Part shown: piece by piece, positions 3,607-8,680 of the stretch
Position numbering within the stretch: the first letter of the stretch is position 1
How the letters are laid out: each line of letters opens with the position of its first letter
DNA from: Limibacillus sp.
Lineage (GTDB): Bacteria; Pseudomonadota; Alphaproteobacteria; Kiloniellales; CECT-8803
Direction of reading: 5' to 3'
DNA length: 46,476 nt
Assembly (NCBI GenBank): GCA_037379885.1
Contig: JARRJC010000008.1
Location: 75,744-122,219, forward strand
Notes under the pieces: model-generated
Database searches by the model: none
What the model saw: only the letters and a program-made list of their open reading frames with translations
Told to the model about the DNA's origin: nothing
Program-made: the position numbers and the translations under genes

Positions 3607-4182
3607 CTAGCGGCCGATGTCGAGGTCGGGCCAGCGGCTGAGGTAGATGCGGAACCAGGGGGCGAGACCCTCGGGGGCTTCCGACAGCTCCCTGTGCAGT
3701 TCCTGGGCGTTGGCCCAGCGTGTCTCGCTGACCTCTTCGGGGTTTGGGGCCATGCGCGGGCTTTCGCTCTCCAGCCGTCCGACGAAGAGGTGGACGTGTT
3801 CGTTCTCGATCAGGCCGCCGCCGACCTCGGCTCGGTAGCGGGTCTCCCCGACCGCGCGCAGCGGCGCTGAGACGCCCAGTTCCTCGCGCAGACGGCGGTG
3901 GGCGCAGCGCTGCGGCTCTTCCTCCCAGTGGGGATGGGAACAGCAGGTGTTGGCCCAAAGACCGGGACAGTGGTACTTGCCGGCCGCCCTGCGTTGCAGC
4001 AGCAGCTTGTCTTCATGGAACAGGAAGATGGATACCGCCTGGTGGAGCTGGCCGCGCTCATGCGCCTCCAGCTTGCCCATCGGGTAGAAGCTGCCGTCCT
4101 CGGCGATGGCCGGGATCTTGGCCGTCAAGGAGCGGTCGAGACCGCCGTCCCGGGCCCGCTCGCCCGGTTTCGTGCGGATCAT
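3607..4182 (-). CDS. idi: Isopentenyl-diphosphate delta-isomerase, type I
   Basis: Cytosolic Nudix-fold enzyme that interconverts IPP and DMAPP, feeding geranylgeranyl diphosphate for carotenoids, bacteriochlorophyll tails and quinones. The 191-residue product has the catalytic-Cys signature NTCCSHP (78-84), the metal/Nudix REELG (99-103) and a second acidic site ENEH (126-129). The ATG at 4182 is chosen because it overlaps the hemA stop as ATGA; a start ten codons upstream would lie inside hemA. It is the last gene of the long superoperon, so isoprenoid supply is co-expressed with pigment synthesis. Confidence 0.92.
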
Positions 4183-5390
4183 GCAGCGCGCTCCAGCCCC
4201 AACTCTCCCCAAATCATGGAGAGCGCGGTGACCAGCTTGTCCACGTCGGCGTCGCTGTGAACCGGCGAGGGGGTGATGCGCAGGCGCTCTGTCCCACGCG
4301 GCACGGTCGGATAATTGATCGGCTGGACATAGATCGCAAAGCGCGCCAGCAGTTCATCGCTGATCTGCTTGCAGAGCGTCGGATCGCCGACCATGACCGG
4401 CACGATGTGACTGGGGTTGTCCATCAGCGGGATGCCGGCGGCCATCAGGCGGCGGCGCACCAGCGCCACCCGCTCACCCTGGCGAAGGCGCTCAGCGGAG
4501 CTCTCCTTCAAGTGGCGGATCGAGGCGGTCGCGCCCGCGGCCACTGCTGGGGGAAGGGCGGTGGTGAAGATGAAGCCGGAGCAGAAGCTGCGCAGGAAGT
4601 CGCAGATCGCGGCCGAGCCGGTCACATAGCCGCCGACCACGCCGAAGGCCTTGCCCAGCGTGCCCTGGATCACGGTCAGTCGCTCGGCCACGCCCTCGCG
4701 CTCCGAGATGCCGCCGCCGCGCCGGCCATAGAGGCCGACCGCGTGGACTTCGTCCAGATAGGTCATGGCGCCATGCGCCTCGGCCACGTCGCAGATCTCG
4801 GCGATCGGGGAGATGTCGCCGTCCATGGAGTAGACGGACTCGAAAGCCACCAGCTTCGGGCGATCGGGGTCCAGCTCACCCAGTTGGCGGTCGAGGTCTT
4901 CCGGGTCGTTGTGCTTGAAGAGGGTCTTCTCGGCCCGGGAGTGGCGGATGCCTTCGATCATGGAGGCGTGGTTCAACTCGTCGGACAACACGACGCAGCC
5001 GGGCATCTGCGCTGCCAGGGTGGAGAGCGCCGTCCAGTTGGAGACGTAGCCAGAGGTGAAGAGCAGCGCTGCTTCCTTGTCGTGCAGATCGGCCAGCTCG
5101 CGCTCCAGCAGCACATGGTGGTGGTTGGTGCCGGAGATGTTGCGCGTGCCGCCGGCGCCCGCTCCGCAGCGGTCGAGAGCGGCGTGCATCGCGCTCAGGA
5201 CCTTGGGGTGCTGGCCCATGCCGAGGTAGTCGTTGGAGCACCAGACCGTGACCTCGCGCTCGCCATCCTCGCAGTATTGGCAGGCTTTCGGGAAAGCGCC
5301 GTTGTGGCGTTCGAGCTCGGCGAAGATGCGATAACGCCCTTCGTCGCGGATCTGATCCAGCCGTGCCTGGAAGAAAGCTTCGTATTCCAT
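4179..5390 (-). CDS. hemA: 5-aminolevulinate synthase
   Basis: PLP enzyme that condenses glycine and succinyl-CoA to 5-aminolevulinate, the first committed step to haem and bacteriochlorophyll in alphaproteobacteria. The 403-residue product shows the conserved [25 protein letters not shown] and YLDEVHAVG motifs, and the PLP lysine is K247 in GTLGKAFG. Length matches the family. It overlaps idi by 4 nt. A 97-nt gap that carries a strong composite hairpin separates it from the upstream puhE-GTPase gene, so it may have partly separate mRNA levels. Whether the genome has a second ALA synthase gene cannot be seen here. Confidence 0.96.
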
Positions 5391-5487: not shown

Positions 5488-7263
5488 CTACTCGGCGGCC
5501 TGCAGCGCGCAGGCCTCCAAATCGCTTTTCAGGCGCTCGGGCGCGGTGATCTTGCCGATCGCCATGACCCTTGCGCGTTCTTCGCCCTGCGGCGCGAAGG
5601 CGGTCATGTAGCTGCGCCCTCCCGCCAGTTCGAAAAGAATCCAGCCCTCGCCGCTGTGGGCCAGGCCCTTGAGGCGGCGAATCTCGCCATAATCGCCGCG
5701 CGCCGCCGATGACAGCAGGCGCTCCAGGCTCTCGGCCTCATAGAAGCCGGACAGCGTCGTGCTCCAGGAGGTGAAGCCCAGCGTCTGCTCCAGGTCGTGA
5801 TGATGCGCGTGGTCTTCGTGATGTTTGCCCGCCCCGTGGTCCTCGGCGTGGTCGCGGGCGTTGTCCTGGTCCTCTTCGGCCTTGGCGGCCGTCATCAGCG
5901 CGACCAGCGCGCGGTCGGGGTCCAGCGCTTCGTCCATCATGGAAAAGCGCGCGGTGACCACGTGGGCCCGGGGGTTCAGCATGCTGAGCGTCGAGCTGAC
6001 CGTGGCCAATTCCGCCGAGCCCACCAGATCGGTCTTGTTGATCACGAAGACCGGCGCCACCTCGGCCTGCATCTCGAAGTAGTCGGGCAGGTTGGCGTAG
6101 TCCTTCAGGAAGGCCGCCGCGTCGATCAGGGTGTAGAGATGCAACTGGCCCAGCAGGGGGCGGATGTCCGGACGGTTCAGGACCGCCAGCAGAGAGGTCA
6201 CGTCGGCCACGCCGCTGGGCTCGATCAGGATGCGCTCGGGCTGATAGCGCTTCATCACCTTCACCAGTTGCTTGGCGAGGTCGCCGCGCAGCGAGCAGCA
6301 GATGCAGCCGTTCGGCAGTTCCACGACCTCCGCGCCCCGGTTGCCCAGACGCGAGGCGTCGATCCCCATCTCGCCGAAATCGTTGACCAGGGCCACCGTG
6401 CGGCGCTCTCCCGCGCCCTGCATCAGGCGGCGCAGGAAGGTGGTCTTGCCCGCGCCCAGGAAGCCGGCGGCGATGGTGACGTCCACGGGCTTGCTGGCCT
6501 GTTCGCCGCGCGATTTCAGGCCCCAGTGCCACAGCTTGGCGGCGGGCAGCGGCACCACCAGGAACCAGTGCTCCAGGATCGCGAGGATCATCATGGTGGA
6601 GAGCAGGATCATGGCGACCGACTCGAAGGAACCGGCGGGCGCTGCGATCACGCTTTCGACCATCATGCCGGCGATCACGGTGGAGACCGTGACCGAGACC
6701 GGGAACAGCAGGTTCATGGACTTCTTCTTCAAGAAGCCGCGCAGGAACTGAAGGTGCTCGGGCAGGAACTCCTCGTTCAGGTTGCGCACGCCCAGGAAGA
6801 CGTTGAGCTTGGCGCTCTGATGCATCCACCAGAGCACGATGAAGGTCCAGGTGCCGACCTGATTGGGCGCGCCCCAGGTCAGCCAGACCACGACAGCGCC
6901 GCTCGCGATGATCGCCAGCTCGTGATAGAGGCTGGTGCCGATGGCGTGCAGGAAGTGGCGCCAGCCGCTGCAACCCTCCTGGCAGACGGTCTTCCGCGGG
7001 CCGGTGACATAGCCCATGTAGAAGGAGATCTCCTGCCAGCCCCAGGCCAGAAGCCCGAAGGTGAAGGCCCAGTAAGCGCCGCTGACGCTGGCGTCCTGCG
7101 CGGTCGCGTGAAGGCCGTAGAGAGAGGCGGTGAGGATCGCCGTCGCGCCCAGCATCGACCATTTGAAGGTCTTTCTGGGCAGGCCGTCCAAATAGATGAT
7201 CGCCCCGGTGGAGAACCACCAGACGAAGAGGGCGAAAAGGATCGGCGCGGCGTAGTCCCACAT
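5488..7263 (-). CDS. puhE: PuhE fused to a COG0523/CobW-type GTPase
   Basis: One open frame of 591 residues. Residues 1 to about 255 are PuhE (photosynthetic complex assembly protein 2, DUF3623), a polytopic membrane protein with about seven hydrophobic segments and family-like stretches such as GWQEISFYMGY and HQSAKLNVFLGVRNL. Residues about 259-591 are a complete G3E GTPase: Walker A GFLGAGKTT (267-275), metal site CICC (320-323), NKTD (409-412), a His-rich stretch (472-489) and a CobW_C-like domain (about 497-575). PuhE is known to affect reaction-centre/LH1 assembly; COG0523 GTPases deliver metals such as zinc. The position between acsF and hemA is where free-standing puhE is normally found. 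The fusion is read directly; its metal and client protein are unknown. Confidence 0.9.
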   Translation of the reverse strand: MWDYAAPILFALFVWWFSTGAIIYLDGLPRKTFKWSMLGATAILTASLYGLHATAQDASVSGAYWAFTFGLLAWGWQEISFYMGYVTGPRKTVCQEGCSGWRHFLHAIGTSLYHELAIIASGAVVVWLTWGAPNQVGTWTFIVLWWMHQSAKLNVFLGVRNLNEEFLPEHLQFLRGFLKKKSMNLLFPVSVTVSTVIAGMMVESVIAAPAGSFESVAMILLSTMMILAILEHWFLVVPLPAAKLWHWGLKSRGEQASKPVDVTIAAGFLGAGKTTFLRRLMQGAGERRTVALVNDFGEMGIDASRLGNRGAEVVELPNGCICCSLRGDLAKQLVKVMKRYQPERILIEPSGVADVTSLLAVLNRPDIRPLLGQLHLYTLIDAAAFLKDYANLPDYFEMQAEVAPVFVINKTDLVGSAELATVSSTLSMLNPRAHVVTARFSMMDEALDPDRALVALMTAAKAEEDQDNARDHAEDHGAGKHHEDHAHHHDLEQTLGFTSWSTTLSGFYEAESLERLLSSAARGDYGEIRRLKGLAHSGEGWILFELAGGRSYMTAFAPQGEERARVMAIGKITAPERLKSDLEACALQAAE

Positions 7264-7295: not shown

Positions 7296-8360
7296 TTACC
7301 AGGCCGGGCTCAGCCGGCTTTCCTCCGGCAGTTCGTTGCTCTTGGCGGGCAGGATGTAGAGCCGCCCGAAAACGGCGGCGGCGGCCAGCGCCAGCCCGCC
7401 CTGCTTCAGCTTGCCGAGGACCCCGCCCTGTTCCTGGGCGCGGCTCATGGCCTCGTTGATGCGGCGCAGGCGCTCCAGCCCCTTGGCGAAGCGCGGGTCG
7501 TCGAGGTCGAGCAGCACCGGGAAGACCTGCTTGGAAATCTCGGAGGTGATGCGGAAGACCTGCATGTCGTAGGCGGTCGGATCCAGGCCAAGCGCCTTGT
7601 GGAACTCCGGCCGGGCGTGGTCGCGCACGTACATGGTCGCGTAGACGGCCAGCTGGAAGAAGCGCACCCAGAGCTTGTTGTGGCCCTGGAGCAGCTTGGG
7701 GTTGGCGCGCATCAGCAGCGCGAAGGCCTCGCCATGGCGGAACTCGTCGTTACACCACTGCTCGAACCAGATGAAGATCGGGTGGAAGCGCAGCTCCGGA
7801 TGCCGCTCAAGCTGGCGGTAGATGGAGATGTAGCGCGCATAGCCGATCTTCTCCGACAGGTAGGTGGCGTAGAAGATGAACTTGGGCTTGAAGTAGTGAT
7901 AGCGCTTGGACTTGGTCAGATAACCCAGGTCCACGCCCATGCCATAGTCCTTCAGGGCGTCGTTGATGAAGCCGGCATGGCGCGATTCATCGCGGGCCAT
8001 GTACTTGAAGAGCGCGCAGATGTCCGGGTTGGTGCCGCGCTTCTTCATCTCCGCGTAGAGCACGCAGCCGGAGAACTCGGCCGTCAGGGAGGAGACCAGG
8101 AAGTCGGTGAACTCCCGGCGCAGGCCGTCGGGCAGGTCCTCCAGCCGGGGCTGATCCCACTTATCGTTGCGCTTGAAGTGATGCTTGTTGGTGTCGGCTT
8201 CCAGCTCGGCGATCAGCACGTCCCATTCCTTGCGGACGGGCGTTACGTCCATCGCGTCCAGCTCGTCGAAATCGGTGGTGTAGAAGCGCGGGCTGAGAAC
8301 CGTGTTCTCCTGCGCCATTTCCGTGGTTTCGCTTTTGAGCGAGAGCTGTTCGATGGTCAT
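7296..8360 (-). CDS. acsF: Mg-protoporphyrin IX monomethyl ester oxidative cyclase
   Basis: Di-iron, oxygen-dependent cyclase that forms the fifth ring of bacteriochlorophyll. The 354-residue product has the ferritin-like iron ligands E95, E125-S-R-H128 and E206-F-R-H209. A hydrophobic segment near the C-terminus (about 317-333) may touch the membrane. It starts in an ATGA overlap with bciE, whose product is needed for cyclase activity in alphaproteobacteria. The puhE-GTPase gene follows after 32 nt. Its presence shows that the host can make pigment in the presence of oxygen; an anaerobic bchE, if any, is outside the window. Confidence 0.96.
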
Positions 8361-8680
8361 AGCTTCCTCCCGGAAGAAAAGCTCACCTCGAGGAGTTCGA
8401 GGGGTTGCATGTGGCCCGCCAGGCGGGCGAAGAGGCGCTCGAGCGCGCTTGCGAGCCGCACGTCCGCGCGGCGCGTGAAACTGGCGCTCTCGCCGTAAGG
8501 CACGGCGATCGGCTCGCCGTGAACGTGAATGCTGTCGCCGGGGCGCAGGGCGATCGGCTCATCGAGCTCGACGTGCGCCGCCAGGCTTTCGAACTTGTTG
8601 ACCACTTCGATCCGGCAGCCGACTTCCAGGCTGCGTCCAAAGAGGGTCTGCATCAGGTTTGAGTGTGTCCGTTCGGTCAT
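8357..8680 (-). CDS. bciE: Cyclase accessory subunit BciE
   Basis: Small protein of 107 residues between puhC and acsF, overlapping both by 4 nt. In Rhodobacter sphaeroides the small gene in this neighbourhood, bciE, encodes an auxiliary protein required by the AcsF cyclase. The identification here rests mainly on position and size; no catalytic motif is visible. The product is soluble and mixed in charge, with a segment of short alternating polar and hydrophobic stretches (about residues 20-66) suggesting beta structure, then a helical C-terminus. If it is not BciE it is an unknown member of the puh-acsF unit. Confidence 0.75.

Follow-up and report, generated by a model that had tools for sequence, protein, structure and literature searches.

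A photosynthesis-cluster membrane protein, PuhE, fused to a COG0523 GTPase: a candidate tethered metallochaperone

A 46,476-nucleotide stretch of a draft Limibacillus genome (128 contigs), called the window below, encodes PuhE, a membrane protein linked to the synthesis of bacteriochlorophyll, joined in one reading frame to a G3E GTPase of the COG0523 metallochaperone family. The same fusion recurs in several bacterial phyla, and its PuhE half carries a set of two cysteines and three histidines (Cys2His3) that is rare in unfused PuhE; this fusion-specific set is new here. Tentatively, the protein is read as a genuine fusion that makes PuhE a membrane-tethered COG0523 metallochaperone, one that would load a site in PuhE itself and serve the aerobic cyclase step of bacteriochlorophyll (BChl) synthesis.

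PuhE and a COG0523 GTPase share one reading frame

The fusion gene is a single open reading frame (ORF) of 591 residues on the minus strand of the window; the plus-strand reading of the same interval is interrupted by a stop. A preliminary description, made from the sequence alone, had placed an ORF at exactly these coordinates, without naming the strand, and had read it as PuhE followed by a G3E GTPase. Pfam and TIGR03055 bear out that architecture, and the Walker A, CICC, NKTD and His/Asp-rich segments lie at the residues then given. The features are:

5488..7263, minus strand: PuhE::G3E fusion ORF, 591 residues (ORF translation and family models)
6502..7263, minus strand: DUF3623/PuhE domain, residues 1-254 (Pfam E 1.1e-113; seven predicted transmembrane helices, C-terminus predicted cytosolic)
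6946..6984, minus strand: C94-x3-C98-x4-H103-x2-H106, in the predicted cytosolic loop 83-99 and the next helix; the four residues are invariant in fused PuhE
6820..6822, minus strand: H148, invariant in fused PuhE
6490..6501, minus strand: junction, residues 255-258
5956..6480, minus strand: cobW/G3E GTPase domain, residues 262-436 (Pfam E 1.4e-42)
6442..6465, minus strand: Walker A, GFLGAGKT, residues 267-274
6295..6306, minus strand: CxCC metal motif, CICC, residues 320-323
6028..6039, minus strand: guanine-specificity motif, NKTD, residues 409-412
5797..5850, minus strand: His/Asp-rich stretch, residues 472-489 (varies among relatives, some of which lack it)
5509..5775, minus strand: CobW_C domain, residues 497-585 (Pfam E 2e-06)
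7296..8360, minus strand: acsF, oxygen-dependent Mg-protoporphyrin ester cyclase, upstream neighbour (family model)
4179..5390, minus strand: hemA, 5-aminolevulinate synthase, downstream neighbour (family model)

The N-terminal half is identified as PuhE by the NCBIfam equivalog TIGR03055 (336 against a cut-off of 164 bits) and by its position within a puhABC-acsF-puhE-hemA cluster. It resembles other PuhE proteins (DUF3623, PF12291) in its full-length match and in the puh-acsF-hemA neighbourhood, whereas unfused PuhE proteins end soon after the domain, with tails of 1-122 residues that are mostly shorter than 60. The exception is L138 (823-2313, genome G957, with no AcsF match), in which PuhE continues in frame into a BchJ-like V4R domain, possibly a second pigment-linked fusion partner. 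DUF3623 is described in a passage of PMC12423673 as lacking the TmAT fold and as having been taken out of the TmAT acyltransferase Pfam clan.

In the C-terminal half the cobW domain scores 145.7 against a cut-off of 20.7 bits and CobW_C scores 28 against 22. The G3E-type Walker A, CxCC and NKxD motifs are all present, so that by its complete sequence signature this half is a COG0523 G3E GTPase; CxCC is characteristic of COG0523 proteins, for which roles with Zn, Fe and Co are known (PMC9164220, in part). The GTPase domain has a PDB sequence match in YjiA (E 7.3e-20). With YjiA, CobW, ZigA and Nha3 the fusion shares Walker A, CxCC, NKxD, CobW_C and, as in many members, a His-rich stretch; it differs from them in its N-terminal seven-helix membrane domain. 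It falls far below the cut-offs for CobW (TIGR02475, 113.1 against 332.1 bits) and ZigA (NF038288, 101.1 against 600 bits), and does not reach that for HypB (TIGR00073, 26.5 against 121.2 bits). Third-position G+C (0.93-0.95) is steady across the junction.

A Cys2His3 set accompanies the fusion

PuhE domains were compared column by column between 48 fused and 58 unfused proteins. C94, C98, H103, H106 and H148 are all present in 48/48 fused proteins and in 3/58 unfused ones, the other 55 lacking the full set, and they persist in Chloracidobacterium-type fused forms down to 44-45% identity. C94 is common in both groups (42/58 unfused), whereas C98, H103 and H106 are rare in unfused PuhE. Unfused proteins mostly have arginine at positions 103 (47/58) and 148 (51/58); no other position combines conservation of at least 80% in unfused PuhE with less than 45% in fused PuhE, and both are histidine in the fusion. 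E78, H114, E115, E231 and H232 occur in almost every PuhE, fused or not.

Eight columns are invariant in fused and below 45% in unfused PuhE, and four of these are Cys or His (hypergeometric p 7.9e-5 over all columns, 0.037 with invariant columns as background). These values are weakened by shared descent, with only 1-4 independent pairs. The pattern points to the Cys/His set as a putative metal-binding site.

AlphaFold2 gives a confident seven-helix model of the PuhE domain (predicted local distance difference test, pLDDT, 87). With helices taken from this model, Lys/Arg counts assign the C-terminal tail and loops 27-29, 83-99 and 157-185 to the cytosol. Because of this placement C94, C98, H103 and H106 are predicted to be on the cytosolic side, and H148 to lie within the fifth helix, in its cytosolic half, on the same side as the GTPase. 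Foldseek returned no relatives of the PuhE fold at E up to 0.001, where a missing listed fold excludes nothing. The best VIA-align Z score was 7.6, to designed barrels, within the range that its note calls common, and PDB sequences gave no match to the domain at E up to 0.1.

Distribution of the fusion

Relatives were sampled by searching species genomes with the fusion itself, which yielded 65 loci and biases the sample towards fused forms. At 58 of the 65, from 57 genomes (L008 and L016 being in the same one), both halves were matched in one open frame. Among these 58, contig ends truncate L047, L048 and L050, and the frame of L051 is broken within the GTPase domain. Four of the remaining seven stop at a contig end inside or just past PuhE, two are eroded (Pelagibius) and the last is an ordinary PuhE. 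The L060 sequence breaks off just within Walker A; it belongs to the 48 fused PuhE rows but lies outside the 58. The L051 fusion, of Jiella pelagia, is split over two frames just before CxCC, as a pseudogene or a sequencing error would be.

The carriers are many Alphaproteobacteria together with metagenome-assembled genomes (MAGs) or drafts labelled Ferrovum, Thiodictyon, Gemmatimonadaceae, Kouleothrix, Herpetosiphonaceae, Acidobacteria and Chloracidobacterium. At phylum level it occurs in Pseudomonadota and, going by the assignment of MAGs or drafts, also in Chloroflexota, Acidobacteriota and Gemmatimonadota; binning errors in these taxon labels are possible. One Chloracidobacterium fusion (L064) is preceded, about 2 kb upstream, by an ORF that matches bchB, in an assembly in which no gene for the reaction-centre H subunit (RC-H) was found.

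Class-level and phylum-level samples, in which 27/385 and 31/398 genomes passed the cut-off, together gave 50 distinct PuhE genomes; one further locus in them, in G738 and not fetched, has a reading frame too short for a fusion. Four of the 50 carry the fusion, the window's own genome among them, and the fusion is therefore a minority architecture of PuhE. At order level, 16 PuhE genomes comprise 2 fused, 3 eroded and 10 unfused forms and 1 cut by a contig end. The preliminary description had allowed for two outcomes that did not occur: most PuhE proteins are not fused, and relatives show no stop or frameshift at the junction, the L051 frameshift lying later. The survey of architectures and species range that it proposed points instead to an old, widespread subfamily rather than a one-off, still a minority of PuhE.

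In viral contigs one pattern match to the fusion was found and none was confirmed. Plasmids gave 1455 matching records, none of which covered more than 80% of the query, and each of the 60 listed corresponds to a single half. The fusion was not found described in the open PMC literature, a search that left aside subscription journals and domain databases, which may well list the architecture; PMC2770081 does not contain the terms fusion, PuhE or DUF3623.

Origin of the fusion

Free G3E proteins were sought in 22 genomes, PF02492 matches under about 116 bits not being included. One branch separates 45 fused G3E domains from 54 free G3E proteins (Shimodaira-Hasegawa-like approximate likelihood ratio test 98, one change), and the free G3E protein of the window's genome (L001) groups among the free ones. 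This is a quick tree, with long-branch warnings for L210, L204 and three Chloracidobacterium-type free proteins; it leaves out 14 near-duplicate fused rows, the short free row L207, duplicates, and cut or frame-broken fusions. In three Chloracidobacterium-type genomes a free G3E gene (L179, L180, L181) lies about 3 kb from acsF, and these proteins fall outside the fused side of the tree.

After removal of duplicates, near-duplicates (L145 among them) and the 5'-cut L048, the PuhE tree kept 111 rows: 48 fused, 58 unfused, 3 eroded and two (L059 and L061) truncated by contig ends. A quick tree places the fused rows together with support 91 and one unfused row inside; a careful tree also unites them (95/95), with four unfused rows inside, and the grouping is unstable. 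In the careful tree the outgroup does not form one side of any single branch, L140 and L120 standing beside the Roseospira group, so that G1032 and G1041 may or may not have lost a G3E domain. Because the fused GTPase domains lie on one side of a branch from the free proteins, a single origin with later losses fits these trees and is likely, with more than one origin a possibility.

The CxCC motif, AcsF and candidate partners

CxCC is found in 53 of 55 AcsF-positive loci, the exceptions being L051 (frameshifted there) and L060 (contig end), and is missing in 5 of 7 AcsF-negative loci. L007 was not scored in this tally, and the genome of L059 (G821) gave no match to AcsF, though the L059 contig stops within PuhE. 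The five genomes without CxCC (G800, G801, G820, G988 and G1012, three of them Roseospira species) form one clade; none of them gave a match to AcsF, and in all five CxCC and the stretch preceding it are gone, while Walker A, NKxD and poly-His are retained. CobW_C is no longer recognised in the G1012 fusion. The two AcsF-negative assemblies that keep CxCC are both fragmentary: G822, which is a MAG, and G808, a draft related to G807, in which AcsF is present. This pattern, which suggests a functional link to AcsF, comes from one clade. The cyclase, named beforehand as one possible site of action, thus gains comparative support of that extent.

Three Pelagibius-type genomes contain eroded fusions (L072, L053, L054). 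Stepwise GTPase remnants remain in them, CobW_C in one and His-rich bits only in two, and the C-terminal end is similar in all three. The Cys2His3 set is whole in one (5/5) and eroding in two (4/5 and 3/5).

BchE was searched in 33 genomes. It was not matched in G803, G806 and G814 and gave only sub-cut-off matches in G804, G805 and G816, of a kind that also occurs in 11 of 14 control genomes; CxCC is intact in all six. BchE is present in the five CxCC-less genomes, in the window's genome and in several other intact carriers. Since CxCC is kept where BchE is unmatched or matched below the cut-off only, BchE (B12) was rejected as the sole client.

Reaction-centre and light-harvesting complex 1 (LH1) assembly had also been proposed as the site served. 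A search of 13 genomes for RC-H (PRCH) detected it in 7; no RC-H/puhA match was obtained in G807-G812, all MAGs or drafts (three labelled Chloroflexota, three Chloracidobacterium/Blastocatellia). RC-H was accordingly rejected as a required partner, and a requirement for reaction-centre/LH1 assembly is not supported by these six carrier assemblies.

Neighbourhood of the gene

Family models confirm puhC, puhB, puhA and bchM as neighbours, and likewise bchH, bchL, bchB, bchN and bchF, all on the minus strand. The order is bchF-N-B-H-L-M, a PUCC-family gene, puhA-B-C, a 107-residue ORF, acsF, puhE::G3E and hemA, so the fusion gene is the last but one of a bchF-to-hemA run; flanking acsF and hemA, and BchH in the same run, had been correctly named at the outset. 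The gene separating bchM and puhA has Pfam PUCC as its sole match. The 107-residue ORF (8357-8680) between puhC and acsF has no match in Pfam or NCBIfam and is, judged by position, perhaps bciE (gene order in PMC10576062, in part). A consensus for a Zur-like palindrome gave 0 matches in the window, 0.29 being expected by chance.

Discussion

In the preferred reading, that of a tethered metallochaperone loading PuhE, the cytosolic G3E domain would bind a transition metal through CxCC, aided in many members by the His-rich stretch. GTP binding and hydrolysis would then release the metal to an adjacent acceptor, the Cys2His3 set on the cytosolic face of PuhE, and metalated PuhE would support or gate BChl synthesis at the aerobic (AcsF) cyclase step. 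Loading of the Cys/His set by the G3E domain is suggested by the co-occurrence of the two; zinc or iron is our guess at the metal. Of the earlier suggestion of metal delivery or checking, the metal-chaperone part is strengthened by the complete COG0523 signature and by the fusion-specific Cys/His set.

Several observations weigh against this reading. PuhE carries no G3E domain in 46 of the 50 PuhE genomes, and the His-rich stretch is missing from several fusion members. In the five CxCC-less fusions poly-His and every residue of the Cys2His3 set remain, so the set is not strictly dependent on CxCC, and one GTPase-less Pelagibius-type genome also retains the full set; all three genomes of that type keep AcsF yet have lost the GTPase domain. 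The three unfused PuhE proteins with the full set (G903, G917, G1032) come from genomes with no AcsF match, as do four unfused proteins without it (G957, G897, G867, G991). The association of set and fusion amounts to one independent pair (four counting unsupported branches), and as it rests on about one origin a phylogenetic test can reach no significance. Finally, the model of the full fusion is weak on domain placement (predicted template modelling score 0.63), with pLDDT below 50 at residues 160-182.

A less probable explanation, with perhaps one chance in a handful or slightly better, is that AcsF is the client, the tethered G3E domain inserting iron into the di-iron cyclase while PuhE only docks. 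The adjacency of acsF and the tracking of AcsF by CxCC fit this explanation; AcsF is called a diiron protein (PMC4944227, in part), and COG0523 offers a precedent in Nha3, the maturase of Fe-type nitrile hydratase (PMC9164220, in part). Against it, all 16 tested genomes with AcsF and unfused PuhE manage without the G3E domain, as do the Pelagibius-type genomes, and acsF and puhE are some 2 Mb apart in G059 and on separate contigs in three Chloracidobacterium-type genomes. Moreover, the AcsF-less genomes without CxCC are a single clade, while AcsF-negative G822 and G808, fragmentary as they are, keep the motif.

Somewhat less probable again is a regulatory module responsive to nucleotide or metal, in which the G3E domain would sense metal status and throttle pigment synthesis through PuhE without donating metal. 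Decay of CxCC and its preceding stretch with the GTP motifs kept, as in the five CxCC-less genomes, is what such a sensor might leave, but the Cys/His set in PuhE is more simply read as a metal acceptor.

That the fusion controls zinc versus magnesium in tetrapyrroles, and in organisms with Zn-BChl helps zinc insertion, seems improbable. Many of the fusion-carrying genera are not known to have Zn-BChl. The zinc reading is a weak one, drawn from the overlap with Zn-BChl genera: the fusion is carried by Acidiphilium rubrum (L039) and by MAGs of Chloracidobacterium (L057, L064), and Zn-BChl is ascribed to both genera, the route of zinc entry being uncertain (PMC12654162, in part). In a passage of PMC4944227, zinc insertion is suggested to come after magnesium loss, which speaks against the idea. 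More speculative still, and even less probable, is a self-contained metal relay in the membrane, running from His-rich stretch and CxCC through the GTPase to the PuhE Cys2His3 set. Such a relay would supply zinc to tetrapyrroles and the cyclase or keep it from them, and would be the factor that has been missing to account for the zinc bacteriochlorophyll found naturally in Acidiphilium and Chloracidobacterium. An assembly or annotation error, or chance loss of a stop, for which only the draft state of the genome speaks, is rejected as next to impossible because relatives carry both halves in one frame, with conserved motifs.

In the known protein IcmF the fused partner of a G3E GTPase is its client; the GTPase there belongs to another G3E subfamily, the partner is soluble, and cobalamin takes the place of a metal ion. 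PuhE::G3E resembles this MeaB fusion protein, which is listed in PMC9164220, in joining a G3E GTPase to a partner that it possibly serves. The fused G3E domains also differ from other COG0523 proteins in their separation from the 54 free ones. For PuhE itself, we know of no mechanism. Many COG0523 metallochaperones lack a known client (PMC9164220, in part), and the fusion names the partner of one such protein outright. Together, the fusion and the Cys/His set that is predicted to face the GTPase suggest an unrecognised metal-delivery step in the making of photosynthetic pigments. If metal transfer does take place, the protein would be a membrane-tethered metallochaperone, PuhE would gain a role in metal handling, and the pair may help to mature or to gate the aerobic cyclase.
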